A stretch of 49,233 nt of DNA from a virus: positions 1-49,233 of IMG/VR virus record IMGVR_UViG_3300046642_000165. One strand, written 5' to 3'. Shown here in pieces: positions 3,359 through 39,593 of the stretch (positions are counted from its first letter, which is position 1; every line of letters begins with the position of its first letter). The notes below the pieces were generated by a model. The model had not been told where the DNA came from. It ran no database searches and saw nothing but the letters and a program-made list of their open reading frames with translations. The position numbers and the translations under genes were made by a program.

Positions 3359-6300
3359 ATGCCGCCCGATGGGATGCCTGATCTTCGTGACCTCGTCCCC
3401 ACGCGATCCGAGGACCCGGCGCGATCCGAGGCAATGCCGAACCTCCAGGACCTCGTGCCGACACCAGCACCGCCCCAGGCGCGCACCGAGGTGATGCCTG
3501 ATCTCCGGGACCTCGTACCCACGCCGCCGGCCCAGGCCACGCCGTCCCCGGCGATAACCACGCCAGCGGGGCCAGCCGCGCCCCCGGGACCCTGGATGCT
3601 GGGTGAGACCGGGACGCCGGATGATACCAACCCACTGGACGCGCCGCCGTCCACGGGGCCGCACGGGTTCGGCGTCAGCCTGGTCGAAGGCATCGTGGAT
3701 ACCATGTCGCAAGGACGCCAGCTTGCCCGGGGCGAGGCGTTTTCCGACGAGAACATTCCACCGCCCGTGGAGCGCACGTTGCTGGGTAAAGCGGCCTACG
3801 CGCTGGCTCCCGGGGCGGTCACCGCGTCCGGTATCGCCGTGGGCGCGGCGGGTGGCGCCGCCGGGGGCACCGCCGTCGGAGGACCGGCGGGCGGTGTCGC
3901 GGGCGGCATCGCCGGGGGCATCGCCGGGGGTGGCGCGCTGGGCTTCGCGCAGTCTTTGATCCCGTCCTACCAGGACGCCCGCAGACGCGGTCTGAGCCAT
4001 GACGACGCGGTGAACGAAGCCTACAAACTGGCGGCGGCGAGCGGCGTACTGACAGGTGCCACGGCGCCGCTGTTCGCCTGGGCGCCGTTCAGGAGTTGGG
4101 TCGGTAACCTGCTGTTGCATACGACGGTGACGGGTCCCGCCATCGGCGCCACCGAGCGCGGCCTGATCAACCCGGCGATCACCGGTCAGCCGGCGCCGAG
4201 CGCCGAGGAAATGGCGTCGGGGTTGCTCTCCGATATCGTCATGGGCGGCATGTTCACCGCCGGCATGCACGGCGGTCCCGCGCTGGCCCGGCGGTTCATG
4301 CCCGATGGCAGGCCGATCCTGGACGTGGGTGTTCCCGAGACACCGCCCGGGCAAGGCTTGCTGACCAGTACTCCTGGCGTCGCGCCCGCGCCCGAGCCGC
4401 CCCCGCCAGGGTCCTACGGGCGCGAACTGTTCACCGCGCCCACCGAGACGGCGCCCCCCGTCGTCACGCCTGTCAGCGGCGGTGTGCCACCAACCATGCC
4501 GCCACCGACAGAACCAGCGACGCCACCGACAGGACCAGCGACAGAGCAACCACCCATCCCACTTCAACCTCCAGCCAGGACAGAACCTGATGTTAGCACA
4601 GTCCAGCCCCGCCCAGGTGAACCCGTCGAGCCCGTCACTCTCGCTGCCCCTGCTGTTCCCGAACCGCCCCCCGACCAGACGATCCAACCCGCCCCCGGTG
4701 AAACCGCCCGTCCTGGTTTGGAGCCGACCGCCGGTCCAGCTGGAACTGTTCCCGTGGATGAAACCCAACCCGGCGGGCAACAACCAGTTGAGCCGGGCAT
4801 CGCTCCCGGCGTGGTTCGACCCGAGCCAGCTGCTCCTGCCTCAGAGCCTCAAACCTCTCGCATAGAGCCTGGAACCGAACTGCCTGTCCCGGGACCAGTT
4901 GAACCTGTCCCGGGACCACGGCCAGCGGAGCCGGCACCCCCGGCGGAACCGACCGAGCCATCGATCCGGGGGAGCACACCGAGGGAAACCTTCGACGCGT
5001 TAACCCGGTTCAACGCACCCGACGAAGCCTATCGCGACATGCTTTCCACCGGCACCAAGGAGCCCCTCAAAGCGGGCGAAACGTGGCGCGACCGGGCGGA
5101 ACGCTACGTCAAAAGCCTGGAAGAACCCACACCCACGGCCCCCCGTGTCGTCAAAGGTGGGCCTGGGTGGGACCCCAACAAGAACCCCGTCGCCCCCGGC
5201 GGTCCACTCGCCGAGCCCCCGCCCTCCAGTGAACCGCCGCCAGCGTGGCGCGCGAAGAACCGGGACATCCCTGACACGCTCTATCGTGGCTCCGGGCGCG
5301 AGGACCAAACAGGCGTCTACAATCCCGCCGGGGGCACGCCGATCCCGATCCTGGGACCGGGGCGCTATCACGCGTTCACCGAGGAACGCGCCAAAAAGTA
5401 TGGCCCCAACATCGAGATCACGCCCAACGATCTGCGTAACCCGCTCATAATCAGATCCGACGAACAGTGGAAAGCCCTGACCAAGGAAGCCGGCTGGGCG
5501 TTCCCCAACCCGTTCGGACTGAGCAAGGAGGTCATCACCCGAAACACCCAGGCCATGCGAGACCTCGTCGAGGCCAAGGGCCACGACGGTGTCATCGTTC
5601 ACTGGGACGACAGCACTCACCTGGACGTGGACAGTCAGGGCCGAGGCATAAAGTTACTGCGCAACGTGTTTCGCGACCCCCAGGCGGTGGACTACCGAGG
5701 CACGGGCACCGCCGAGGATACCCTGGCGAAACGCGGTTTCGGGGGCCAGACCCGAACCCCGAAAGCGCCGGGAACACCCGACCCGCTACCCAAACGCGTC
5801 GGCGCCGCCCCCCGCGTGGCGCCCGAACCCGTACCCGAACCGGGCCGCGCGCCCACCCTGGAGGATTATAATTACTCACGCGATGTGAGCATGCACCGGC
5901 AGGCGTTCCACGACGCGCTGGCCGGGACCGGCGAGGACCCCAGGACCGCCGCCAACAAGCCCATGCCGGAGCAAATCGCCCTGCTCAGTAAAGCGGTCAA
6001 GGATAAATACGGTTTCACCGACGTAACGGTACGACCCGGGGCCGAACCCCGGATCGTGCGCGACCAACTCCTGAACATGCACCAGAACATGCAGAACATG
6101 GCGCACGCGCTGGGCTGGGCGCCCGAGGTGATGTCGCTGGACAGACTGGTCAACCTGGACCTCGTGCCGCGCCAGTTCGATGGCGGGCACTGGATGGGAC
6201 GCTACCAGTGGGGCGGTAACACCAAAACCATCCAGATTTCCGGCGGGTCGAACAGTTTCGCGCACGAGTTATGGCACGGGATCGATAATTATCTCAGCGA

Positions 6301-9300
6301 CGTACTGAACAAGAACCCCAACAAGCAGGCGCTTTTCACACGGTCCGCCCGAGCCGGCGAACTGGACCCCGCCCAGGACCCGGTGCAGGCGGCGTTCGCG
6401 CATGTGCTGAACACCATGAGCCATGGATCGGGCGAGATTTTGTTACGCCGGCTCATACTGGAACAGACCGCCAAACAGGTGAACAAGGCCGGCCAGCCCA
6501 CGAAGCGGGCGGTGGACGCGCGTGCCATGCTGGACCGGCTCAACGCCGCCGCCACGGGTGGCCTGCGTATCCCGGACAGCGACTTCGTGAAGCAGGCGAA
6601 AGGACTGCCACAACCGCGCTACCACGCCAGCGTGGAGGAACTGTTCGCCCGCATGGCCGAGGCGTACACCGCGTACAAGATGGTTCAGGCCGGCGTCCCG
6701 GACACGGCGGGCGTGGCGAAATCCGATCAGGCGTACCAGGACGAAACGATCCGCTACCTGCGCGAGGCTTACCCCGACCCAGGCGACCGGCTGCGGCAGT
6801 TCGCCGCCATGGATAACCTGGTCTACGAGATGCAACGCGCGGCGGTGCTCAACCATGGCCACGCGCCGGCCCAGAGAGCGTCCACGGCGCGCACCCTGGC
6901 GATGTGGCATGACCGCCCCCCGGATATCGGTCCCGGCTTCATGGCCGCGCTGCGCGCCGACATGGCGGCGTTGCGCCCGGACCGGCTGCTGAACAGCGAT
7001 CACGACCAGATCGTGTTCCCAAAAGACCGCGAACCGCCGCCGCCCACCTGGAACACCAGGACCGGCGTGGCCCGGCCCAAGAACGCGGGCGAACGCATGG
7101 GCGACGCGGCGGGAGGCTGGTTCCTCTCGGTGATGGGCAACCTGGAACGCTGGCGGAAGCAACTTCCCCCGGGCGCGCGGCCCTACCTGACCCAGATCCT
7201 GGATCGGGTCGGGGTCTCCCACGAGGGCCGCTTGCAGCCCATGACGTTCGAGGAACGCTACCGGCATCCTTCGCGCAAGAAATCCGCCGAACTGAGCGAT
7301 GCGTTCCGCGACAGCGGCCTGGTCAACAGAGTGGGGAGAATATACACAAGTAAAGCCGACGACGAAATGATCTGGCACACCCTGACCACGGGTGAGCACA
7401 CGTATCCCACGAACCACCTGGACCCGAACGGTCCCCGGGTGCCGATCCCCGGCAAGATCCTCGACTTCGCGGAAAAAGCCCGGCCCATCCTGGACGCCAT
7501 GCACAAGATGGCGGACGACGCCGGGCTGAAAGTGGGTCACGCGTCGGAGGGCGGCGGCTACGCGCCGCGCACCTATGACGATCACAAGATCCTGGGTCAC
7601 GAGGGCGAGTATCGCCGCGACATGACCGAGGTCGTGAAGATCATCTTCAACAACGATATCGACGCGGTCCCGGACGCGGAGCAGCCAGCCCGGTTGCACC
7701 AGTGGTGGCGCGGCGTGGGCGAGGCGGTGCGCGACGATCCCATGCTGGACCCGAAAATCCGCGACGCGATGGAGACACTGGGTAAAAACCTGACACGCAT
7801 CAAGAACATCGAAGCCGAACTGGCGGCGGGTCCCGGCGGTCCCGGGGTCAACCCCACCACGCACGATCCGGTGAAACTCAACGCCGACCGGCTGACCCTC
7901 ATCGATGAAAACCAACAGATTTTCGGTGCGTTCCGTAATCGGGTCCGGGACCATTACGCGCCCATCGAAGCGAAGAACCGTTTCGATCGGATCGCCAAAG
8001 GCGACATATCGAACTGGGAGACCTTCGGCCCGAAGTCGCAGTTCCTGAAGGGCCGGACCCTGCCGCCGGAAGCGGATCGCATCCTGCGGAACTGGATGAT
8101 CCAGAAGCCGAGGGAGGGTTTGCTCAACTACATTCACGGCATGAGTCAGAAGGTCGCCTACCACGAGATATTCGGTGAAACCGGTGGGGAAATCGAGAAG
8201 CTGATCCAGCACATGGTGGACGCGGGCGCGCACCGCACCATCACCGACGAGATCAGCCGGGCGGTGGAACTGCTCACCGGGCGGGCGCTGCGCGACGTGG
8301 ACAACGCCACCAACACGATCACCAACACGGTCGCGGCGCTGGGCACCATGATGCTGCTGCCCGGGGCGTCGATCACCGCGCTGGGCGAGCCCGCCGCGAC
8401 GTTGATCAACGGCGGCAACATGCGGCAACTGGTCCGCACCTACACCAACCTGGTCGGGCAGATCCTGCGCACCGCCAAGGGCGCCGAGCGGATGGCGGCG
8501 GTGCGCTATATCGGCGGCGTCATCGACAGCATGCAGAGCAGCGCCGCCGCCAACCGGTTTCAGGACTACTCGGGAACCCCGCGCATCGCCAGCCTGGTGA
8601 ACGGTTTCATGGAACTGGCCATGGGCAAGATGATCCGGCACCTGCGCGCGGCGGGGCTGGACGCCGGGTCCCGTCACCTGATGCCCTTGCTGCTGAAATA
8701 CGCGACCGAACCGGCCAAGGGCGACTACGAACTGAACCGCCAGGACGACGCTCAACGCATGCTCCGGGAGTGGGGTGTCCCGGACAGGCGCATGGCCGAG
8801 CTACGGGATTTCCTGGACCAGGCCGGGGGACCGCCAACACCAGCCCAGATCGCCGCCGCCGGTCGCGTGGGCGAACTCTACGAGTTCGCCGCCAACCGGA
8901 TGCTGGATCGCTTCAACCAGGACCCGTCACCCGCCGAGAAACCCGTGGGCGGCATGAAAAACCCGGTCCTGCGCATGATGTTCGGGCTGACCTCGTTCAT
9001 CTACACGTTCTTCCGCCACACCATGATCCCCTGGCTCGAAAAGGCCGGGCACGCCCGCCAGCGCCAGTTCGACCGGTCCACCGAAGCAGGAGACAGGTTC
9101 CCGAACATGCAAGCCGAGGCGGCGCGGTTCGCGTCCTGGACCGGGGCGCTGACCGGCATGGCGGTGTTCCTGGCCGGGACCGCGCTGCTCTACTCGGTGC
9201 GGACCTTCTTCCTGAGCCATCAGGTCTGGCAAAAGCATGCCGAGGCCGGCGACCTGCTCCCCTGGCTGATCAGCGGCGCGATCTCCCAGTCGGGCATCGC

Positions 9301-9997
9301 CGGTCCCCCCGATATCATCCTCCAGGGTCTGGTCGGACTGCGCTACCGCGCCGATGTCGCCTCGTTCACCCAGGGCGCCTACCCGGCGGCGATCACGCGT
9401 GGGCTCTCCGACATCGCCAAGATGTTCGCCGCCGTGTTCGGCAAGACCCCCGGCACCAACACCGATGTCTATAACGGGCTCTACGCGCTGATCCAGATGA
9501 TCGCCAAGCCCGGCATGCTGGCGAGCCTCACATGGTTGGCGCAGCACGTCCCGGAGGGCGGTCCGCTGGCGGCGCTGATCACCGCCGCGTCGGTTGTCGG
9601 CACGTCTTCCACCGTCACACGGGGCGCCACCACGATGCTGGCCGGCGAGCGGGGCACCGCTCTGCCCGATAAGCCCGCCGCCGGGCCGAGGGCGGGAGCG
9701 ATCCAGTTGCCGTCAGGCCATCCGACATCAGTACACCCGGCCCGGTCCGGCGCCGGGGCGATCCAGTTACCCGGACCGCGTACCGACAAAGCCGGCACGG
9801 GGGCCAGCGCGAGCGGCGGCATGACCAGCATCGCCGCCGGGGCGCTCGATGATGTCGCGGTGCCCTTGCTCAGGGTGATGCCGCCATGGGGCACCGCCGC
9901 CGCCGTGGGGGTGAGCGCCGTCACGGCGTTCGGCGCCATTCTCAAACAGGCGCACGAGTACAAGACCCAGGGCGTTCCACCGGAGAAAGCGCGCTGA
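3359..9997 (+). CDS. Giant polyvalent internal virion protein (2212 aa) with ART-like and zincin-like domains
   Basis: Starts immediately after the previous stop. Visible architecture: three MP[DN]L[RQ]DLVPT repeats at residues 6, 26 and 46; a Gly/Ala-rich hydrophobic stretch near 155-200; a long Pro/Glu/Thr linker near 330-560; an ADP-ribosyltransferase-like region near 635-780 (TLYRGSGRE, GRYHAFTEERAKKYG, KGHDGVIVHWDD); a zincin-like segment with HELWH at 969-973 in a SNSFAHELWHGIDNYL context; then about 1,000 mostly helical residues with membrane segments near 1925-1950 and after. ART and zincin modules of this type are known in phage and conjugative 'polyvalent' proteins delivered with DNA. 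It occupies the gp16 slot, so ejection into the host with the genome is inferred. The C-terminal 200 residues are low-complexity and Gly/Ala-rich. Confidence 0.85.
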   Translation: MPPDGMPDLRDLVPTRSEDPARSEAMPNLQDLVPTPAPPQARTEVMPDLRDLVPTPPAQATPSPAITTPAGPAAPPGPWMLGETGTPDDTNPLDAPPSTGPHGFGVSLVEGIVDTMSQGRQLARGEAFSDENIPPPVERTLLGKAAYALAPGAVTASGIAVGAAGGAAGGTAVGGPAGGVAGGIAGGIAGGGALGFAQSLIPSYQDARRRGLSHDDAVNEAYKLAAASGVLTGATAPLFAWAPFRSWVGNLLLHTTVTGPAIGATERGLINPAITGQPAPSAEEMASGLLSDIVMGGMFTAGMHGGPALARRFMPDGRPILDVGVPETPPGQGLLTSTPGVAPAPEPPPPGSYGRELFTAPTETAPPVVTPVSGGVPPTMPPPTEPATPPTGPATEQPPIPLQPPARTEPDVSTVQPRPGEPVEPVTLAAPAVPEPPPDQTIQPAPGETARPGLEPTAGPAGTVPVDETQPGGQQPVEPGIAPGVVRPEPAAPASEPQTSRIEPGTELPVPGPVEPVPGPRPAEPAPPAEPTEPSIRGSTPRETFDALTRFNAPDEAYRDMLSTGTKEPLKAGETWRDRAERYVKSLEEPTPTAPRVVKGGPGWDPNKNPVAPGGPLAEPPPSSEPPPAWRAKNRDIPDTLYRGSGREDQTGVYNPAGGTPIPILGPGRYHAFTEERAKKYGPNIEITPNDLRNPLIIRSDEQWKALTKEAGWAFPNPFGLSKEVITRNTQAMRDLVEAKGHDGVIVHWDDSTHLDVDSQGRGIKLLRNVFRDPQAVDYRGTGTAEDTLAKRGFGGQTRTPKAPGTPDPLPKRVGAAPRVAPEPVPEPGRAPTLEDYNYSRDVSMHRQAFHDALAGTGEDPRTAANKPMPEQIALLSKAVKDKYGFTDVTVRPGAEPRIVRDQLLNMHQNMQNMAHALGWAPEVMSLDRLVNLDLVPRQFDGGHWMGRYQWGGNTKTIQISGGSNSFAHELWHGIDNYLSDVLNKNPNKQALFTRSARAGELDPAQDPVQAAFAHVLNTMSHGSGEILLRRLILEQTAKQVNKAGQPTKRAVDARAMLDRLNAAATGGLRIPDSDFVKQAKGLPQPRYHASVEELFARMAEAYTAYKMVQAGVPDTAGVAKSDQAYQDETIRYLREAYPDPGDRLRQFAAMDNLVYEMQRAAVLNHGHAPAQRASTARTLAMWHDRPPDIGPGFMAALRADMAALRPDRLLNSDHDQIVFPKDREPPPPTWNTRTGVARPKNAGERMGDAAGGWFLSVMGNLERWRKQLPPGARPYLTQILDRVGVSHEGRLQPMTFEERYRHPSRKKSAELSDAFRDSGLVNRVGRIYTSKADDEMIWHTLTTGEHTYPTNHLDPNGPRVPIPGKILDFAEKARPILDAMHKMADDAGLKVGHASEGGGYAPRTYDDHKILGHEGEYRRDMTEVVKIIFNNDIDAVPDAEQPARLHQWWRGVGEAVRDDPMLDPKIRDAMETLGKNLTRIKNIEAELAAGPGGPGVNPTTHDPVKLNADRLTLIDENQQIFGAFRNRVRDHYAPIEAKNRFDRIAKGDISNWETFGPKSQFLKGRTLPPEADRILRNWMIQKPREGLLNYIHGMSQKVAYHEIFGETGGEIEKLIQHMVDAGAHRTITDEISRAVELLTGRALRDVDNATNTITNTVAALGTMMLLPGASITALGEPAATLINGGNMRQLVRTYTNLVGQILRTAKGAERMAAVRYIGGVIDSMQSSAAANRFQDYSGTPRIASLVNGFMELAMGKMIRHLRAAGLDAGSRHLMPLLLKYATEPAKGDYELNRQDDAQRMLREWGVPDRRMAELRDFLDQAGGPPTPAQIAAAGRVGELYEFAANRMLDRFNQDPSPAEKPVGGMKNPVLRMMFGLTSFIYTFFRHTMIPWLEKAGHARQRQFDRSTEAGDRFPNMQAEAARFASWTGALTGMAVFLAGTALLYSVRTFFLSHQVWQKHAEAGDLLPWLISGAISQSGIAGPPDIILQGLVGLRYRADVASFTQGAYPAAITRGLSDIAKMFAAVFGKTPGTNTDVYNGLYALIQMIAKPGMLASLTWLAQHVPEGGPLAALITAASVVGTSSTVTRGATTMLAGERGTALPDKPAAGPRAGAIQLPSGHPTSVHPARSGAGAIQLPGPRTDKAGTGASASGGMTSIAAGALDDVAVPLLRVMPPWGTAAAVGVSAVTAFGAILKQAHEYKTQGVPPEKAR

Positions 9998-12394: not shown

Positions 12395-12835
12395 TCAGTC
12401 CAGACTTCGTAATCGCCGCGCGGTGTCTGAAAGGGTATCGATGATCGAGTTGATTTCGTTCATGCGTGGCGAGCCTGGTACCCCACTCTCGGCGGACCTC
12501 AGTCTCCGCGTGATATGATCAAGCTGAACCGCTTCTTTCTCCAGGTAATCTTTGTCGAGGTCCCCCACCAGCGCGAGCCCATGCTCGGTCAGGAAAGTTT
12601 TCAGTTCCACGAGTGAGACCTTACCGAAGTTAGGTATCCGCAACAACTCAGCGGAGGACCATGCCGTGATCTCTCGCCAGGTCCGGGCGGTTTTTGGGTT
12701 CGGGGGGTCCCAATCCGCATAGTATTCGAGATGCGACAACGTATTACGGGTCCGCGTGGTCAGCGTCCCAATGGGGTTAAGCATTCCGTTGGTGTCACGC
12801 CAGCTAATTGGCGCATCAGGGTCAAGCTGTTTCAT
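12395..12835 (-). CDS. RNA polymerase alpha-CTD-like protein
   Basis: 146 residues. Residues 20-90 read like the C-terminal domain of bacterial RNA polymerase alpha: LTTRTRNTL, then ELLRIPNFGKVSLVELKTFL and EHGLAL. Against E. coli alpha, R28, N31, N69, G71, S74 and E77 correspond to the DNA-contact residues R265, N268, N294, G296, S299 and E302; the K298 position is Val73. About 20 extra residues, rich in Trp, Pro and Asp, lie between the first helix and the helix-hairpin-helix. The last 50 residues are helical and charged. There is no assembly (NTD) domain. A DNA- or sigma/activator-binding role during infection is inferred; a plain helix-hairpin-helix replication accessory is the alternative. 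ATGA overlap with the upstream gene. Confidence 0.75.
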   Translation of the reverse strand: MKQLDPDAPISWRDTNGMLNPIGTLTTRTRNTLSHLEYYADWDPPNPKTARTWREITAWSSAELLRIPNFGKVSLVELKTFLTEHGLALVGDLDKDYLEKEAVQLDHITRRLRSAESGVPGSPRMNEINSIIDTLSDTARRLRSLD

Positions 12836-19004: not shown

Positions 19005-19403
19005 TTGGCCACCGAACTGCTTACGCAACGCGAAGCCGCCGCGTTATTACGCTGCGGCATTTCCAAAATACAGGCGCTGCGCCGCTCCGGCGCGCTGCCA
19101 TACCTGCCGGGACGCCCGGTGCTCATACGTGAACAGGATGTCGAAACGTGGCTATCAGAACACATCATATCAGCAAGCCGACACGCAGCCCCCGCCGCCC
19201 CGGCGAAAGCCCCGACACGTGGACGGTTCGCAACGCGTATCTCTGGCAAAAACCAACGGGACGCTGGGTCATCCGCTACACCGACATCGTGCCCGGCGCC
19301 GAAGGCGGTCCCGCCGATCACCGCACCAGCGAACAAGCCTGCTACACCACCGACCGAGGCGAGGCCGAGGATAATTTCACGGTCTGGAAAGCAAACCGGC
19401 TGA
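19005..19403 (+). CDS. Excisionase-like MerR/HTH_17 protein
   Basis: TTG start five bases after the repressor stop. Residues 1-55 (LLTQREAAALLRCGISKIQA, then LRRSGALPYLPGRPVLIREQ, DVETWLSEH) are a winged-helix HTH of the excisionase/MerR class. The remaining 77 residues are Pro/Ala/Arg-rich and lie in a different frame from the integrase that overlaps them for 256 bp. The HTH part is convincing; whether the full tail is used is unclear. Roles could be recombination directionality factor or a regulator of int. No ATG is available upstream. Confidence 0.65.
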   Translation: MATELLTQREAAALLRCGISKIQALRRSGALPYLPGRPVLIREQDVETWLSEHIISASRHAAPAAPAKAPTRGRFATRISGKNQRDAGSSATPTSCPAPKAVPPITAPANKPATPPTEARPRIISRSGKQTG

Positions 19404-20332
19404 CGCCCAGGCAAACCCGCGCGAGCGCGCCGATCACGTTCGAGCGGCTGGCGCGCGACTACGTGGCGACGACCGGGACCCAGCGCCTGACGAAGGCCCA
19501 GGACCACACCGTGGGTAAACTCATCCAGACCCTGGGGCATCACCCGGCGGATCGCGTGACCGAGCAGGTCCTGGCCGGCATGCACCGGGACATCCTCGCC
19601 CAGGGATGGTCGCAGGGCACCGCGCGGCGGCACCTGAGCGTGGTGCTCACCGTGCTCAACTGGGGTGCCAGGAACAAACTCATCTCACGCGACGCCGTGC
19701 CCTTCTACCAGATGCCCCCGGTGACGGCGCCCCGGAACTACACGCTGACAGCCGAGGAAGACGCCCGGGTGTTCGACCTCGCGGCGGACTGGCTGGCGCG
19801 AAACGACGAAGTGAGCCGGCGCGTCGGGCTGTTCGTATGTCTGGCACTGGACAGCGGGCAGCGCCGGGACGCGATCCTGGAACTGGTCTGGGAGCGGATC
19901 GACCTCACGCCGGGGAGCGAGTTCATGGATTTCGTGAACCCAACGTATCAACCAAAGAACAAACGCCGCTGCGGGGATGTTTTCATCACGGAACGGTTGC
20001 TCGGCGTGCTCAAACAGGAAGCGTTCCGCGCCCCCAGGCACCAGGGCAAAGCCACGGGAGCCTTGTTCCCGAGCCATCGCCTGATGGACGGCTTCGACCG
20101 GTTCAAACGCGAGGCGAAGTTACCCAGGCTGACACCGCATGTGTTCCGGCATACGTTCGCGACGTTAAGGATCAAGGCGGGCTGGACGATATCGGACGTG
20201 GCGCATGTCCTGGCCGACAACCCGATGACGGTGAACCGGGTCTACACCCACAACGCCGGCCATAGCGTGCGCGACAACGCGCGCCGCATCGAGGCCCTGC
20301 GAAACAACCCCGCCAGCCACCGCGCGGCGTGA
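19148..20332 (+). CDS. int: Tyrosine recombinase integrase
   Basis: 394 residues from GTG 19148 with AGGA about nine bases upstream. Residues 1-75 form an arm-binding-like region (AYLWQKPTGRWVIRYTD), 95-185 the core-binding SAM-like domain (FERLARDYVATTGTQRLTKA), and 200-380 the catalytic domain with R239/R240 in LDSGQRRDAILEL, H331-x-x-R334 in PHVFRHTFATL, and Y366 in RVYTHN. It should carry out site-specific integration and excision of the phage. I found no tRNA-like core or obvious attP near it. The gene starts inside the HTH gene and its stop overlaps a GTG of the next frame. Confidence 0.93.
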   Translation: MAIRTHHISKPTRSPRRPGESPDTWTVRNAYLWQKPTGRWVIRYTDIVPGAEGGPADHRTSEQACYTTDRGEAEDNFTVWKANRLTPRQTRASAPITFERLARDYVATTGTQRLTKAQDHTVGKLIQTLGHHPADRVTEQVLAGMHRDILAQGWSQGTARRHLSVVLTVLNWGARNKLISRDAVPFYQMPPVTAPRNYTLTAEEDARVFDLAADWLARNDEVSRRVGLFVCLALDSGQRRDAILELVWERIDLTPGSEFMDFVNPTYQPKNKRRCGDVFITERLLGVLKQEAFRAPRHQGKATGALFPSHRLMDGFDRFKREAKLPRLTPHVFRHTFATLRIKAGWTISDVAHVLADNPMTVNRVYTHNAGHSVRDNARRIEALRNNPASHRAA

Positions 20333-20992: not shown

Positions 20993-21011
20993 TTTTCGCA
21001 TTGTCGCTTTT
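20993..21011. repeat. Single iteron-like copy upstream of primase gene
   Basis: TTTTCGCATTGTCGCTTTT matches the repeats found at 23804-23878 on the other side of the primase-helicase gene. It lies in the 333-bp gap 20800-21132, which otherwise holds two hairpins and no gene. Confidence 0.7.
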
Positions 21012-21048
21012 ACCGGCTTGACCCCTGGCACGGGGAGTCGGAGGGTGC

Positions 21049-23626: not shown

Positions 23627-23803
23627 CACAACAAATCCCGTACCAGTACCAGCATTCCAGGATGAAACGCTACGCGCGCGCGCGTTAAGTATATACTCTT
23701 TATACTCTGCCATAGATAGCATACTCAGTACCATGCGCGCGCGCGCCCGCCCATGTGTGGAAAGGTTTCCTTAAATGCTGGTACTGGTACGGGTTTTGTT
23801 GTG
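23627..23803. repeat. 30-bp inverted repeats flanking a GC/AT/GC core
   Basis: Arm 23627-23656 (begins CACAACAAATCCCGTACC, ends AGCATT) matches the reverse complement of 23774-23803 at 29 of 30 positions. Between the arms lie (CG)6 at 23673-23684, a 50-bp AT-rich segment with two TATACTCT copies (23692-23699, 23701-23708), and (GC)6 at 23735-23746. No convincing gene lies here. The arrangement suits a replication origin or a large cruciform. Confidence 0.75.
23685..23734. other. AT-rich segment between alternating CG tracts (possible unwinding element)
   Basis: About 50 bp of mostly A/T sequence with several TATA/ATAC steps, in a genome that is otherwise GC-rich. It is bounded exactly by two 12-bp alternating CG tracts that could adopt Z-form under negative supercoiling. 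Together with the iterons 70 bp downstream, it is a plausible DNA unwinding element; this is inference. Confidence 0.5.
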
Positions 23804-23878
23804 TTCGCATTGTCGTTTTCGCATTGTCGTTTTCGCATTGTCGCTTTACACGACTACAGTTTTCGCATTGTCGCTTTG
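23804..23878. repeat. Iteron-like array, four copies of TTCGCATTGTCG
   Basis: CGCATTGTCG occurs at 23806, 23820, 23834 and 23864, each preceded by TT and followed by TTT or CTTT. The first three are spaced exactly 14 bp apart, the fourth 30 bp further. A fifth copy is at 20993-21011. The array begins right at the end of the inverted-repeat arm. Short tandem iterons next to a RepB-like primase are typical of initiator binding sites. Confidence 0.75.
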
Positions 23879-23932
23879 CCGGGCCGAGGCGCCCCGGGCG
23901 TGCCCGGGCCGGCGTCATGGACACGGCGCGGT

Positions 23933-24018
23933 CAGATGGGACAGTGCCCAGGGGCGCCCAGGGACAGATGGGACAGTGCCCAGGGGTGTCCCTGGGACAG
24001 ATGGGACAGTGCTCCAGG
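23933..24018. repeat. Three 22-bp direct repeats spaced 32-33 bp
   Basis: CAGATGGGACAGTGCCCAGG begins at 23933 and 23965; a third copy at 23998 differs only near its end (GTGCTCCAGG). Spacing is 32 and 33 bp, close to three helical turns, so bound proteins would sit on one face of the helix. The stretch is not coding in any convincing frame. Confidence 0.75.
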
Positions 24019-24024
24019 CATGGA

Positions 24025-24164: not shown

Positions 24165-24197
24165 CGCGACCCTGGCCAGTCGTGGGCCAGGGTCGCG
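24165..24197 (-). terminator. Strong 13-bp hairpin after the CobT-like gene
   Basis: CGCGACCCTGGCC (24165-24177) and GGCCAGGGTCGCG (24185-24197) form a perfect 13-bp stem with a 7-base loop, 33 bp past the CobT-like stop on the minus strand. It is the most stable hairpin in this gap and probably ends the leftward CobS/CobT transcript. No U-tract follows on either strand. Confidence 0.6.
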
Positions 24198-24229: not shown

Positions 24230-26236
24230 TCATGCGACTGACTCCGGCGATGCCTCTTCCAGCATCCGCGCCAGGACCCCGAGACCTACGCGGCCCAGAT
24301 CGTCAAGGCTGGCTACGTTGACGCTGTGGCCGTCCGGGAACGCCTTGACCACTTGCGGCGCGGCCATGCCAAGGGCGACAACCTCCACGCCCCAGGACCG
24401 CGCCACGAAGCAGGCATCGGTGACGCAGCCCGGGCCATAATTGCAATCACCATCGGTGAGCACCATCAAAATATGCCGGTTGGCATCGATGGTGCGCAAC
24501 ACTTCGGCGCAGCCCAGTATCGCCGGGCTCATGGGCGTGGTCACGTACGGTTGAACCGCCATCAGCCGGTGTGCGTTGGCTCGCACCGGTATGCCAAACT
24601 CAATTAATGGCACCAGTTGCGCACCGGCAACGCCCCGCGTGTCGCCGTATGGCGTGTCAATGAACCCGTAGACCGCTACCTTCGCCCCGGCATCCTCCGC
24701 CGCCGTGGCCAGGTGGAACGCCGTCACGCATGCCATGGCGTGGGCTCGCCCCGTCATGCTGGATGACAGGTCGATCAGCACCAGCAACGCGGTATCCATG
24801 CCCGGTGTCTCATGCTTCCGGCTGAACACATCCACGGCACCGGTGCCAAGCCGTGCCATGGCACGGCGATCAAGCCGGCCAGAGGTTTCCCGGTGCGTGA
24901 CCTGGACCCGTTCCGGTGACACGAGCAAACGCGATATCTGGCCATGCAAGACGGCGCGACCCGGTAACGCCGCGTTGAACGCCTGAACGTGTCTGAGCGG
25001 ATCACCAGCAATCGTGCGCGGCATGGCCATGGTCATGTTCTTGTAACCGTGCAGCCCCTGGGAACCGGTTTTCGGCGCGTCCGGTGCCTGGCGCGCCGAT
25101 ATCGTCTCGGTGACATCAGTCAGGGTTTCGCTGGCTTCCGGTGCGTCGTCCAGGCTGTAGGTGTCGTCACCGGTCTCGCCAGCCTCACCAGGGGCGTCCT
25201 GGTCGTCCTGGGCGGGTTCACCAGCCTCACCAGGGGCGTCCTGGTCGTCCTGGGCGGGTTCACCAGCCTCACCAGCCTCACCAGCCTCACCAGCCTCACC
25301 AGGGGCGCCACCAGGGGCGTCCTGGTCGTCCTGGGCGGGTTCACCAACCTCACCAGCCTCACCAGCCTCACCAGCCTCACCAGGGGCGCCACCAGGGGCG
25401 TCCTGGTCGTCCTGGGCGGGTTCACCAGCCTCACCAGGGGCGTCCTGGTCGCCATCGCCATCGCCAGCGGCGCCAGGTGCGTCCTGGTTGTCCTGGTCGT
25501 CCTGGGGTGGCGTGGGTGGCGTGGGTGGCGCGGCGGGCTGGTTAGCGGCGATGATCTGGTTTTCCAGGTCAACCATGCGCAGCGCCAGCCGGTACACGTC
25601 TTGCGTGGAGCGGCATGCTTTGACTTCGGTCAAGGCGACATCCACGAGTCGCGCCACGTCCACATGCAACGCGGCGCGCAAACCCCGGGCGGTCGGAACG
25701 ACATACCGGTTCGCCATACGCCCCAGGACCGCGAGGCAGTACGGTGCATCCGCGATCCTGGCGCCAATGACGCGGCCCGCTTTGGTCGCCTGAACCAAAC
25801 CCTGGTAGTGCAGGTGGTCCATCGTGGCCGAGAGAATGCCGCGCAAAGCCGGAAAGTGTCCCGCGCGCAACTCTTTCGCTTCGATCCTGACATCTTCCAG
25901 GCAGTTCGCCCAATGCCTGACACGACTGCCAGCCTGGACGCAGTGAGACCACCATTGCCAATCGGTATGCAGTACATGCAGGCACTCATGCGCGATGAAA
26001 CCCAGCATCCTATCGGCTTCAAGCCGGGACAGCACGGTGGACGCGGGCAGGGATGGCAGGGACATGCGCACGTTGCCGCGACCATCCATATGCACGCTGG
26101 CCGAAACACCACCGCGTGCGTCAACCGTGACGTGGAGCGGTTTGTTGCTACCCTGGCCGCGCCGCTGCGCCAGGATCTTCCTGGCGGTCTCAGCGGCGGC
26201 ACTGGTTACCTCAAGGTAAAGTGTTGACGTTGCCAT
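24230..26236 (-). CDS. CobT-like VWA protein with N-terminal HExxH
   Basis: 668 residues. Residues 75-95 contain FIAHECLHVLHTDWQWW, an HExxH metal-binding signature (H83, E84, H87). Residues about 235-380 are an acidic, repetitive Gly/Glu/Pro/Gln linker. Residues 480-665 are a von Willebrand A domain with the MIDAS motif DLSSSM at 489-494 and a later LTDGDC. CobT-type VWA proteins act with a MoxR/CobS-type AAA+ ATPase, which is encoded just upstream. The host CobN/CobS/CobT complex inserts cobalt into cobalamin precursors; without CobN a metal-chelatase role here is doubtful, and a MoxR-VWA remodelling pair is equally likely. The linker DNA is internally repetitive. Confidence 0.82.
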   Translation of the reverse strand: MATSTLYLEVTSAAAETARKILAQRRGQGSNKPLHVTVDARGGVSASVHMDGRGNVRMSLPSLPASTVLSRLEADRMLGFIAHECLHVLHTDWQWWSHCVQAGSRVRHWANCLEDVRIEAKELRAGHFPALRGILSATMDHLHYQGLVQATKAGRVIGARIADAPYCLAVLGRMANRYVVPTARGLRAALHVDVARLVDVALTEVKACRSTQDVYRLALRMVDLENQIIAANQPAAPPTPPTPPQDDQDNQDAPGAAGDGDGDQDAPGEAGEPAQDDQDAPGGAPGEAGEAGEAGEVGEPAQDDQDAPGGAPGEAGEAGEAGEAGEPAQDDQDAPGEAGEPAQDDQDAPGEAGETGDDTYSLDDAPEASETLTDVTETISARQAPDAPKTGSQGLHGYKNMTMAMPRTIAGDPLRHVQAFNAALPGRAVLHGQISRLLVSPERVQVTHRETSGRLDRRAMARLGTGAVDVFSRKHETPGMDTALLVLIDLSSSMTGRAHAMACVTAFHLATAAEDAGAKVAVYGFIDTPYGDTRGVAGAQLVPLIEFGIPVRANAHRLMAVQPYVTTPMSPAILGCAEVLRTIDANRHILMVLTDGDCNYGPGCVTDACFVARSWGVEVVALGMAAPQVVKAFPDGHSVNVASLDDLGRVGLGVLARMLEEASPESVA
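25176..25470 (-). repeat. Coding tandem repeats in the CobT-like linker
   Basis: The unit encoding QDDQDAPGEAGEPA recurs five times, and a longer unit of about 81 bp (with three or four extra Gly-Glu-Ala steps) is present twice in nearly identical form. Near-identity at the DNA level points to recent slippage or recombination; the reading frame is preserved. Confidence 0.85.
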
Positions 26237-26238
26237 GA

Positions 26239-27831
26239 TCAGTTCCCCTCCCCGGTGACATCGTCAGGCGAAACAACGTCGAAGTCGTCAGCGGCGGGCG
26301 ATGATGACGGCGCCGGCGCGCCAGGGTTCAACGCGGCGCGAACCGTGTTTTTATCTACCGCCAACAGGCACTGTTGGCGCAGTGCCTCTTGCTCGCCATC
26401 GGGAACACAGTTTTGCACGGCGCAGCGGAACGCGAGATCGGGGTCATGGCCATCGGCCAACAGTCCCGCCCAGGCGAACAACCGGCGCAGTCCAAGGCCC
26501 TCGGTCAATACCTGCTGGTCAGCGGCGGCGCGTGTCGTGGTCGCCGCCTGGACGAGCAGGTCAGCCAGTTCCCGCGTGCAGCCCGGGACATGGGACATGA
26601 GTATGCCGGCTTCCACGTCGGGAGCGTGCCAGCCCAACTTTATGCGCACACCAAAACGATCCAGGGTCGCGGCGTTAAGTGCCTGGGTCCCGTGGTAACC
26701 CGTCCGGGACCCGCCGCCCATACCTGACGTGTTATCGGTGGCCATGAATATCACACCAGGCGCCACACGCACTTTCTGGCCCGTTTCCTGGATGTAAAGA
26801 GACCTGTTCGCGGTCAATACGTTCTGCAACGCGAACAACGCTCCCGGGCGGGCAATGGAAGGCTCGTCAATGCAAATAACCGCGCCAGGGGTTTGAATGG
26901 CGCGCGTCAACTGTCCAGGCTGGAAACTCACACCTTTGCCATCGCGCGCCGGGACCGTCATGCCCACGAGCGTGGCGGCGTCCGTACTGGCATCGCACGA
27001 TATCAAAACGAAAGGCCGGCGCAGCCGTGCCGCGATCTGTTGCGCGAACTCGGTCTTACCAGTGCCTTTGGGACCGAAAAGCATGACGTTATTTCCGCGT
27101 CGCATTTCAGTCAGCGCCACTGAGGTTTCGGCGGGCCAGACGTAACGGTCATTGACGCATGGGGTGTCGGGGTGCGCGCCGTCCCATACCGTCGCGGTTT
27201 CCGAACCCAAGGCGCCGCGCACACCAAATGCTTTGCGCCATGTCACCGTTTGATCAGTCGGCGCGGCCCGAGGTGTCACCGTGTCGCCATCCCGCTCCAC
27301 GGGAACCTCAACCGTGACGGTTTTCGTCACCGTCACAACCTCAGCCGGCTTGCGCGAGGCTATCACCAGGTCGCGCAGTCTCTGGTCCAGAGCAGCGAAA
27401 CCGCCGCCCATGATGTCAGACCGGATTTTGTTAACCTCAGCCGCGATGGCGTCATCATCAGTTGGGACTGGTGCGACGCTTCCCTTGATGTTCGGGCTCA
27501 GGTCAACCGTGCGTCCGTCTGGCGTTACCCAGGTCGTGTCGGGCGGCGTCATCAGGTCGCGCGCTTCGTCCTGGTCGGTATCGTCCTGGTCGGTATCAAC
27601 CATTGGCTGATTTCCCGGGGTGTGCGCGGGATGCAACAGCATTGGATCGATGCCGGCAATGCGCAGCAACCCGCGCAGGTCGGGTTTGGTCAGGTTGTTT
27701 ATCAACCTGCCATTCAGTTCCTGGCGGACCGCGTCGGCATCGGACATGCCGGCGGGATTGGCGGCGAGGAACTCGCGCAACGCGACACGCATCGCGGTGC
27801 GCCAGACGGCGCTAGGGGTAGGGTTAGTCAT
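26239..27831 (-). CDS. MoxR/CobS-type AAA+ ATPase
   Basis: 530 residues. The N-terminal half is a helical domain without known motif plus a linker with Val/Thr-rich beta strands (VTVTKTVTVEVPVERD). The AAA+ core has Walker A GPKGTGKTEF near 253-262, Walker B VICIDEPS near 317-324, a sensor-1-like segment FMATDNTSGMGGGSRTGYHG and an arginine region LDRFGVRIKLG. The family couples ATP hydrolysis to remodelling of partners that carry VWA domains; the CobT-like gene begins two bases after its stop. ATG 27831 has no obvious SD. cobS-like genes occur in several phage groups with unknown benefit. Confidence 0.85.
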   Translation of the reverse strand: MTNPTPSAVWRTAMRVALREFLAANPAGMSDADAVRQELNGRLINNLTKPDLRGLLRIAGIDPMLLHPAHTPGNQPMVDTDQDDTDQDEARDLMTPPDTTWVTPDGRTVDLSPNIKGSVAPVPTDDDAIAAEVNKIRSDIMGGGFAALDQRLRDLVIASRKPAEVVTVTKTVTVEVPVERDGDTVTPRAAPTDQTVTWRKAFGVRGALGSETATVWDGAHPDTPCVNDRYVWPAETSVALTEMRRGNNVMLFGPKGTGKTEFAQQIAARLRRPFVLISCDASTDAATLVGMTVPARDGKGVSFQPGQLTRAIQTPGAVICIDEPSIARPGALFALQNVLTANRSLYIQETGQKVRVAPGVIFMATDNTSGMGGGSRTGYHGTQALNAATLDRFGVRIKLGWHAPDVEAGILMSHVPGCTRELADLLVQAATTTRAAADQQVLTEGLGLRRLFAWAGLLADGHDPDLAFRCAVQNCVPDGEQEALRQQCLLAVDKNTVRAALNPGAPAPSSSPAADDFDVVSPDDVTGEGN

Positions 27832-37449: not shown

Positions 37450-38028
37450 ATGGCCGATCAGCAGGACATGCTGGCCTACGTGAAAGGCCGGATGGCCGGG
37501 ACCGAGGCACCGCCAGCTCCGGTCGAGGACCCGATGAAATCCTATGTCGTGGCGCAGGGCGCCAGGGGCGCTTTGGTGCCGCCTACCACGATGATGGACA
37601 GTCCTCAGTATCTCGTTCTCCCCGACCCGGGAGATGAGCCCGTGGCCCGGGGTGTCGGCCCGAACGCGGTGGAGACCACGAAACTGCCACACCTTCAGCG
37701 ACAGGCTGACCTGATGCGTCAGATGGAAGAGACGCGGGCCGCGATGAGCAAAGCCGAGGGGACGCCCGCTTTCCAGCCGTTATACGACAAGTTCATGGCG
37801 CTCTACGATGCGCACCGGCAGGCATACAAAGCAGGCCCGGTGGGGAACCTCATCAGGAAAGAAGACCAGATCGAGGCCGGCGCGAAAGCTAACGCGGCTG
37901 ACATCCAGGAGGGCGCCGATGCTCGCCGGGCGGCGCCGCGTCAGTCTTTGCCGCCGCCCGCTCCCGGCGGGGTGCCGCTCGACGCGCCGCCCACCATGCC
38001 GGTCGTGCCTTCGGTGCCGATGTCGTGA
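37450..38028 (+). CDS. Hypothetical protein preceding terminase (192 aa)
   Basis: Starts MADQQDMLAYVKGRMAGTEA and has a central helical, charged region (LPHLQRQADLMRQMEETRAA, FQPLYDKFMALYDAHRQAYK) followed by a Pro-rich end. The last base of the gene overlaps the GTG of the large terminase (GTGA). Position just before TerL is the usual slot for a small terminase, and the central helices could fit, but there is no recognisable HTH; structural or packaging accessory are both possible. Confidence 0.65.
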   Translation: MADQQDMLAYVKGRMAGTEAPPAPVEDPMKSYVVAQGARGALVPPTTMMDSPQYLVLPDPGDEPVARGVGPNAVETTKLPHLQRQADLMRQMEETRAAMSKAEGTPAFQPLYDKFMALYDAHRQAYKAGPVGNLIRKEDQIEAGAKANAADIQEGADARRAAPRQSLPPPAPGGVPLDAPPTMPVVPSVPMS

Positions 38029-39593
38029 CACCGGACGAGCAACGCTATGAGATGGTCCTCAAGCGGCTGATCGCCGTCAAAGACGCGCGCGACGATCTCC
38101 TGGCGTTCACCCGCCTGATGATGCCGGTCCCGGGTTACACTTCGGACCCGGATTTCAGCCGTTACGATGCTCAAAGGTTCCACCGGATCATGTGCGTGGG
38201 ACTGGAGGAACTGGAGAAAGGCACGATAAAACGCCTGATCATCAGTCTCCCACCACGACACGGTAAGACCGAACTGGCGAGCAAGAAGTTTCCCGCGTGG
38301 TTCGTGGGCAGGAACCCGGCGAAAAGCTTGATATTTGGCACATATAACGAGAAGTTCGGCCAGGACATAGGTCGCGCGGTCCGGGACACAATGCTGACGC
38401 CGGCCTTCGCCCAGGTGTTCCCCGACGTGGTGCTCAAACAGGACAGCCTCGCGTCGGACAGGCTTCAGACGAAGCAAGGCGGCATCATGGCGTTCGTGGG
38501 TCGAGGGGGAACCACCACGGGACGCGGCGGCGACGTGCTGATCATCGATGATCCACTCAAGGACCGTCACGAGGCTGACTCACCCACCATCCGGGACACG
38601 CTGTGGACGTGGTTCACCCAGGTCATCGCGTCCCGTCTCATGGACGAAACGGGCCGGATTTTGCTCATCCAGACCAGATGGCATCAGGATGATCTCGTTG
38701 GGCGCCTCACCGACCCAACCAATAGTTACTATGATCCCGAGGAAGCCGCCGAGTGGCGCATCATCGACATGCCGGCGCTGGCGGTGGACGCGCACAAGGA
38801 CCCCCTCAAGCGCGCCGAGGGTGATCCGCTGTGGCCGAACCGGTTTGGACGGAACTTCCTCCTGGGTTTGCAAAGGCGTGACGCGCGAGGCTTCAGCGCA
38901 CTCTACCAGGGCAGGCCCAGCCCAGCCGGGGGCACCTTCTTTTCGTCCAAATGGATACAAACCTACCGTCCCGCCGAGTTACCCACCAACCTGCGCATCT
39001 ACGCCGCGTCCGATCACGCCGTCAGCATGAAGCAGGACAGCGACAAGACCTGCCTGATGTGCGTCGGCGTGGACGAGGACGATAATATCTGGATACTGGC
39101 TGATCTCTTGTGGCGGCAGATGACGGCGGAACAGGCGGTCGAGGCCATGCTGCGCATGATGCGGGCGCATAAACCCGTCTTTTGGTGGGCGGAACGCAGC
39201 ATGATCTCCAAGAGCATCGGTCCCTTCCTCAGGAAGCGCATGCTGGAGACCAAAACCTTCTGTTCGATCATCGAAATGCAGCCGATAGCTGACAAGCAGA
39301 CCCGCGCGCAGTCCATTCAGGGCCGCATGAGCATGGGCAAGGTGCGCTTTCCCGAGCGAGCGCCCTGGTGGCCCATGGCCAGGGACCAGATGCTGAAGTT
39401 CCCCTACGACGCGCACGATGATTTCGTGGATACGCTGAGCTACGTGGGCCTGGGGCTTACCCTTCAGATAGGCGCGGGCCGTACCCGCATCAAAACCGAC
39501 GACAACGCCGAGGGCACGTTCGGCTGGCTGAAGAATGAACGCGATATGGCCGAGCGGTCCGTGCGTCAGGGCTTCGGCGCGGGAGGCTGGTGA
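38025..39593 (+). CDS. terL: Large terminase subunit
   Basis: 522 residues from GTG 38025. ATPase motor: Walker A SLPPRHGKTE near 74-82, Walker B DVLIIDDPLKDRHE near 170, and a coupling segment LLIQTRWHQDDLVGRL. Nuclease: AASDHAVSMKQDSDKTCLMC near 325 (metal-binding Asp), then ILADLLWRQM and the C-terminal DAHDDFVDTLSY. It cuts concatemeric DNA and pumps it into proheads. The DNA-end type (cos, pac or terminal repeats) cannot be told. It is coupled to the portal gene downstream by a TGATG overlap. Confidence 0.95.
   Translation: MTPDEQRYEMVLKRLIAVKDARDDLLAFTRLMMPVPGYTSDPDFSRYDAQRFHRIMCVGLEELEKGTIKRLIISLPPRHGKTELASKKFPAWFVGRNPAKSLIFGTYNEKFGQDIGRAVRDTMLTPAFAQVFPDVVLKQDSLASDRLQTKQGGIMAFVGRGGTTTGRGGDVLIIDDPLKDRHEADSPTIRDTLWTWFTQVIASRLMDETGRILLIQTRWHQDDLVGRLTDPTNSYYDPEEAAEWRIIDMPALAVDAHKDPLKRAEGDPLWPNRFGRNFLLGLQRRDARGFSALYQGRPSPAGGTFFSSKWIQTYRPAELPTNLRIYAASDHAVSMKQDSDKTCLMCVGVDEDDNIWILADLLWRQMTAEQAVEAMLRMMRAHKPVFWWAERSMISKSIGPFLRKRMLETKTFCSIIEMQPIADKQTRAQSIQGRMSMGKVRFPERAPWWPMARDQMLKFPYDAHDDFVDTLSYVGLGLTLQIGAGRTRIKTDDNAEGTFGWLKNERDMAERSVRQGFGAGGW

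Follow-up and report, generated by a model that had tools for sequence, protein, structure and literature searches.

A candidate replication origin behind a phage primase-helicase gene, with inverted-repeat arms that co-vary with the helicase half of the protein

Analyzing a virus record of 49,233 bp (the window, meaning the whole stretch of DNA analyzed), we found directly behind its primase-helicase gene a non-coding segment that is probably the phage's bidirectional (theta) replication origin, in which the two arms of a long inverted repeat (IR) would be read by the C-terminal half of the primase-helicase (Table 1). We read the segment as an origin because its layout is conserved in relatives, because the IR co-varies with the helicase half of the protein and because GC skew turns nearby, and these same three lines give good support to the initial annotation, which had placed an origin beside a primase/SF3 helicase. 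The best reading is an origin candidate of a known kind whose parts are newly combined, namely a pRN1/SaPI-like arrangement with an added iteron cassette. Origins have rarely been mapped in phages with fused primase-helicases, and the layout offers a rule for finding them: a long IR with an AT-rich core immediately after the stop codon.

Table 1. Features of the candidate origin region and its surroundings, in window coordinates.
Feature	Coordinates	Strand	Basis or remark
Solitary perfect iteron TTTTCGCATTGTCGCTTT	20993..21010	+	139 bp before primase start, 7 bp before -35-like box
Primase-helicase gene, 810 aa	21133..23565	+	Domain searches, models, comparison
Left IR arm	23627..23662	+	IR search, genome-wide ranking
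(GTACCA)2G tandem unit within left arm	23640..23652	+	Shuffle P 0.02
(CG)6 tract, pairable with 23735-23746	23673..23684	+	Sequence, folding
AT-rich core, 68% AT, candidate unwinding element	23685..23734	+	Composition; AT-richer cores in relatives
(GC)6 tract	23735..23746	+	Sequence, folding
Right IR arm; unit CTGGTACTGGTAC at 23778-23790	23768..23803	+	IR search
Four iterons TKTTCGCATTGTCG	23802..23873	+	Repeat search; comparison with relatives
Three GGGACAGATGGGACAGTG repeats, 22-30 bp, spacing 32-33	23930..24024	+	Absent from relatives
GC hairpin CGCGACCCTGGCC/GGCCAGGGTCGCG	24165..24197	.	By eye; similar hairpin in several relatives

Every element described by the initial annotation (an IR matching at 29 of 30 positions, (CG)6, a 50-bp AT-rich core, (GC)6, four iterons and three 22-bp repeats) is present as it stated. 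Over their full length the IR arms are complementary at 33 of 36 positions (29/30 in the outer 30 bp) across a spacer of 105 bp, giving a score of 28.5 against a maximum of 10 among 30 dinucleotide shuffles, and making this the top IR with a 20-150 bp spacer in the window (runner-up, 12); DNA folding of the IR strand yielded z = -10.5. The same IR sequence is found in a second contig (G001/L004, 99.98% identical), so the segment is not a one-off assembly error. Between the arms, the 50-bp core is AT-rich in a genome of ~65% GC, and the tracts on its two sides are mutually complementary and could lengthen the hairpin, a feature the first reading had overlooked. An Rfam search of the segment returned zero matches, and searching viral contigs with 17-mers from the arms returned 54 stretches, with both arms together only in the near-identical sister contig and the others looking like chance single matches.

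To place this layout among relatives, we combined a protein search, which found nine (L005-L012 and L014, 48-65% identity in the best segment), with a profile search that added three distant ones (L119, L121 and L122, 29-44% identity). All twelve carry, in the first non-coding stretch after the primase-helicase stop, an IR whose core is richer in AT than the genome and whose spacer measures 50-125 bp, the IR being weak in three or four of them. The initial annotation had tied its proposal to the repeats persisting in close relatives that keep the primase, and there the layout survived. Folding was strong (z about -4 to -15) in 10 of 13 phages including the window phage, with L007, L012 and L119 at z -1.6 to -2.8, and the IR was the genome's top scorer in 6 of 10 records, third in L012 and L005 and outside the best six in L008 and L007, such that in these last four it is poor and not, or barely, the record's best. 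Every contig that extends far enough (that of L119 stops at the arm) has direct repeats behind the right arm, and they fall into three groups: TTTCGCATTGTCGCTTT iterons in the window phage, L005-L010 and L014 (group A), CGCGGTTGGGCTTT in L011/L012 (group B) and CGCCGTGAG(TTT) in L121/L122 (group C). In the known phages phiM5, Vibrio 1.185.O, BPP-1 and MW202496, simple IR searching found no strong IR within 300 bp after the gene, and thus did not recover the stem-loop that the pRN1 paper (PMC4234260) names for BPP-1. As a separate observation, a frameshift near residue 393 interrupts the L014 primase-helicase in L120 (~5185), a record of the same region as L014; this is either a sequencing error or a real split gene.

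Two elements of the earlier proposal did not carry over to the relatives. The (CG)6 tracts had been thought to act as Z-forming boundaries, and as a conserved part we rejected them: CG on both sides, as (CG)6, is confined to the window phage, and one-sided CG runs of at least 6 bases were scored in the window phage, L006, L014, L119 and L011 (weak) and are absent from other cores. The GGACAGATGGGACAGTGCCCAGG-type repeats starting at 23930, 23962 and 23995, also counted as part of the origin, are not common to relatives and are probably not a working part of it.

The encoded protein is predicted to combine a RepB-like/AEP-type primase half (~aa 1-320), an SF3/VapE/DUF5906 helicase (~aa 491-640) and a winged-helix-like C-terminal domain (aa 721-810). 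Domain searches detected the VapE/DUF5906 helicase in 9/9 members and RepB_primase in one, at E 0.048. The full-length AlphaFold model was poor (pLDDT 53), and the C-terminal 171 aa gave a good-confidence model (pLDDT 82) with helices and short strands in winged-helix-like order; Foldseek with this model returned non-significant matches alone, several of them winged-helix proteins, and the C-terminal end is, by prediction, a probable winged helix.

Comparing arms between close relatives revealed that pairing is largely kept as letters change. Between L006 and L014, 7 of 27 pairs changed and all seven were compensated, and the same held for 6/6 of the changed pairs (out of 19) between L009 and L010; the L009/L007 comparison gave four broken pairs, and L005/L008 two compensated changes and one broken. 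Across the phages, IR similarity followed identity of aa 321-810 (Mantel r 0.86, and 0.84 with the N-terminal half removed; P 0.0002), and its partial correlation with aa 1-320 after removal of the C-terminal half was r -0.21. Many arms also contain short tandem units: units of 5-9 bp were significant (P 0.02 or less) in 6 of 12 phages, namely (GTACCA)2 in the window phage, (TCAGCAG)2 in L006, (CTCAGCA)2 in L014, (CACGG)2 in L005, GTAACGG three times in L121 and (TGTAGCAC)3 in L122, and not significant in the remaining six, which include L007, L009, L010, L011 and L119.

Natural chimeras help to tell apart the DNA elements that accompany each half of the initiator. The window protein is nearest to group A (70-97% in windows 211-330) up to residue ~320 and to L011/L012 from there on, and its C-terminal 90 aa are 57% identical to L011 versus 31-38% to group A; judged by sequence similarity, then, it is a natural chimera of a primase half from the TTTCGCATTGTCG-iteron group (A) and a helicase half nearest L011. 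Its arm matches only that of L011 (GTACCAG-TACCA versus GTACCAGATACCA, P 0.001-0.004 before correction for twelve comparisons), yet its iterons are those of group A. In L014, a primase half 98-100% identical to L010 is joined to a C-terminus 74% identical to L006 and the arms are L006-like, and L005 pairs an L010-like primase half (94%) and an L008-like helicase (95%) with an L008-like IR that has the same 60-bp spacer. Such cases do show, at the level of sequence, the arms and the C-terminal half exchanged together, and it appears that an initiator and its start site are passed on as a matched pair. Physical linkage alone could produce this co-variation, because the arms neighbor the C-terminal codons.

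That arm sequences diverge completely while pairing is kept also fits a form of the same origin in which the signal is shape, an extruded hairpin or cruciform whose letters drift as long as pairing holds, as has been proposed for pRN1, where many stem changes are tolerated and one was rescued by restored symmetry (PMC4234260). We regard this as possible, if on the doubtful side, given that short tandem units in many arms, the way the arms track the C-terminal half even in the window chimera, and the imperfect stems of L005, L007, L008 and L012 all agree better with sequence-specific sites.

Alongside the IR, the iterons start at 23802, 23816, 23830 and 23860 (spacing 14, 14 and 30), and the window holds five matches against 0.23 expected. 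The array consists of direct repeats of constant sequence in a single orientation beside an AT-rich stretch, as is characteristic of iteron-plasmid origins, and the spacings (14, 27-30, 38-41) preserve no reading frame, so that open reading frames called across the segment are not coding candidates. The fifth copy, overlooked by the initial annotation, precedes the primase promoter, just 5' of a TTGACC -35-like box at 21018-21023, and every phage of this iteron group has such a solitary iteron 139-169 bp ahead of the primase start, in L008 in degenerate form; this placement suggests autoregulation. Two relatives (L007 and L009) have, downstream of the IR, an extra copy immediately before the ribosome-binding site of a small gene, and long tandem runs that are unrelated between phages occur just past the iterons (GGGCCA in L008, ~390-470 bp after the match end, and GGCTGTCGAGCCCCT in L121). 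The copies before the -35-like box and before the ribosome-binding site would both be expected if the iterons served a phage regulator as operators, or formed a partition/incompatibility site, and had nothing to do with the adjoining origin; we think this unlikely, since the array always abuts the IR, and does so in three unrelated iteron groups (A, B and C).

Lying just past the stop codon, the IR would also fold as RNA, and one could read it as a transcription element that either terminates the primase mRNA or forms an RNA hairpin where this mRNA ends. This is very improbable, as its loops are 50-105 nt long without a T run, a terminator scan was negative at the IR, Rfam was empty, and a separate GC hairpin (24165-24197) lies between the converging genes and is likely the terminator there; moreover, a transcription element leaves the AT-rich cores and the adjoining iterons unexplained. 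An inserted MITE-like mobile element of 177 bp, suggested by terminal inverted repeats around a short non-coding body, can practically be set aside, the IR being at the same site in all relatives examined although its arm sequences are unrelated and its spacers (60, 78, 84 and 105 bp) tuned, and no second copy being present in the genome.

Cumulative GC skew, which the initial annotation had proposed as a check, agreed with an origin here in 5 of 6 A-group genomes and not in those of L011 and L012, where the pattern is absent. In the five (window phage, G003, G006, G007 and G011) the detrended minimum precedes the primase stop by 0.7-1.8 kb and is no more than 1.8 kb from the IR, with the maximum roughly opposite (+19.6 to about +25.5 kb); G005 has its minimum 4.8 kb away. 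At fourfold sites, with strand controlled, most comparisons give a small shift of the expected sign, and the window's + strand genes go the wrong way. We consider the skew supportive, not decisive.

The window phage is temperate-looking, its record encoding an integrase (19148-20332), a terminase (38025-39593), a family A DNA polymerase and an SNF2-like helicase. Relative to its relatives ~1.4 kb is missing between the record's end and start, so the record represents a nearly complete circular map. The contigs of six relatives end 1.2-2.5 kb after the primase, and we rejected a genome terminus there in favor of an assembly break, because the break (window ~25.2-25.5 kb) lies inside a gene and two records have end overlaps of 115-127 bp, which are typical of circular assemblies. 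The gene at this break (~25200-25500), common to several relatives, encodes the CobT-like VWA protein, which sits beside a MoxR/CbbQ-type AAA ATPase in a pair (24230-27831, - strand) kept in most relatives, and the two overlaps are k-mer sized. Elsewhere, a small protein resembling the RNA polymerase alpha C-terminal domain (12395-12835, - strand; Pfam E 1e-4) occurs, among relatives, only in the window phage and its twin, with a weak partial match in G014, and a 2212-aa protein (3359-9997) has a weak LPD1 (large polyvalent protein) domain. A tRNA/att site was also considered and dropped, the window containing zero tRNA. Hosts are presumably bacterial; the sole genome match, at 35%, was in an alphaproteobacterial MAG.

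SF3 helicases are known to load themselves as hexamers. For binding, melting, priming and the role of the iterons, we infer the following. Short units repeated within both arms would be recognized by the C-terminal half of the primase-helicase, probably through its winged-helix-like end, and the facing arms would load two hexamers in opposite orientation, flanking the AT-rich core. The hexamers would melt this core, perhaps aided by extrusion of a hairpin or cruciform, after which both strands would receive their first primers from the N-terminal primase domain. The iterons of constant sequence by the right arm, together with the single promoter copy, may form a second site of control, serving as an enhancer, in autoregulation or in copy control, and recognized by another protein, or by another surface, than the arms. 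A more speculative version, which we advance only tentatively and think unlikely as a whole, is an origin with two codes, fast-changing facing arms read by the helicase half and constant iterons read by the primase half or a backbone protein, with recombination near residue 320 swapping helicase half and arms as a cartridge. If true, compatible new replicons could arise in one step, and the window phage would be such a hybrid.

Among known systems, the oriV of RSF1010/IncQ is similar in having iterons, an AT-rich stretch, hairpin structures and a RepB-like primase, but it uses separate RepA, RepB' and RepC, small ssi hairpins and a strand-displacement mode (PMC4234260), whereas here we find one fused protein and one large IR. 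Phage P4 alpha, as far as the account in PMC4234260 extends, likewise unites primase, helicase and winged helix in one protein that binds origin repeats. Its primase, however, belongs to the bacterial Toprim type. Replication of P4 relies on ori1 and on crr, which lies far from it, and is not known to use a hairpin 3' of the gene. Closer are SaPI Rep and SCCmec Cch2, each of which, in the summary given by PMC7581432 (citing Ubeda et al. 2007), uses its C-terminal domain to bind repeats located 3' of the gene encoding it. On that summary they share with our candidate an origin directly downstream of a self-loading helicase gene, and would share short repeats read by a C-terminal domain and two proposed hexamers. 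They differ in that the short units of our candidate are arranged as a long IR with two facing arms, a separate constant iteron family is added, the primase is fused, and a phage, not a satellite or cassette, is the carrier.

In the crenarchaeal plasmid pRN1, a genetically proven origin, an intact ~100-bp stem-loop 3' of the AEP-SF3-wH gene is needed, with sequence free and symmetry required, and a stem-loop origin was proposed also for the Bordetella phages BIP-1/BPP-1 (PMC4234260). Our candidate resembles it in what is predicted to be a protein joining primase, SF3 helicase and C-terminal winged helix, in having a stem-loop of ~100 bp directly 3' of the gene, and in keeping structure rather than sequence (poorly in L007, L012 and L119), with low conservation confined to the stem-loop. 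It differs in that pRN1 has been described without iterons, whereas here one iteron stands ahead of the gene and an array of them behind the stem-loop, and in that the arms here often carry tandem short units and the hosts are presumed bacterial. The initial annotation's statement that no described origin has this layout thus needs narrowing, since the pRN1 stem-loop (PMC4234260) and, as far as PMC7581432 describes them, the SaPI repeats 3' of rep are similar, and it is the combination with iterons that is new. With a dozen related phages at hand, the pRN1 proposal that a 3' stem-loop is the origin in bacteriophages too becomes directly testable.
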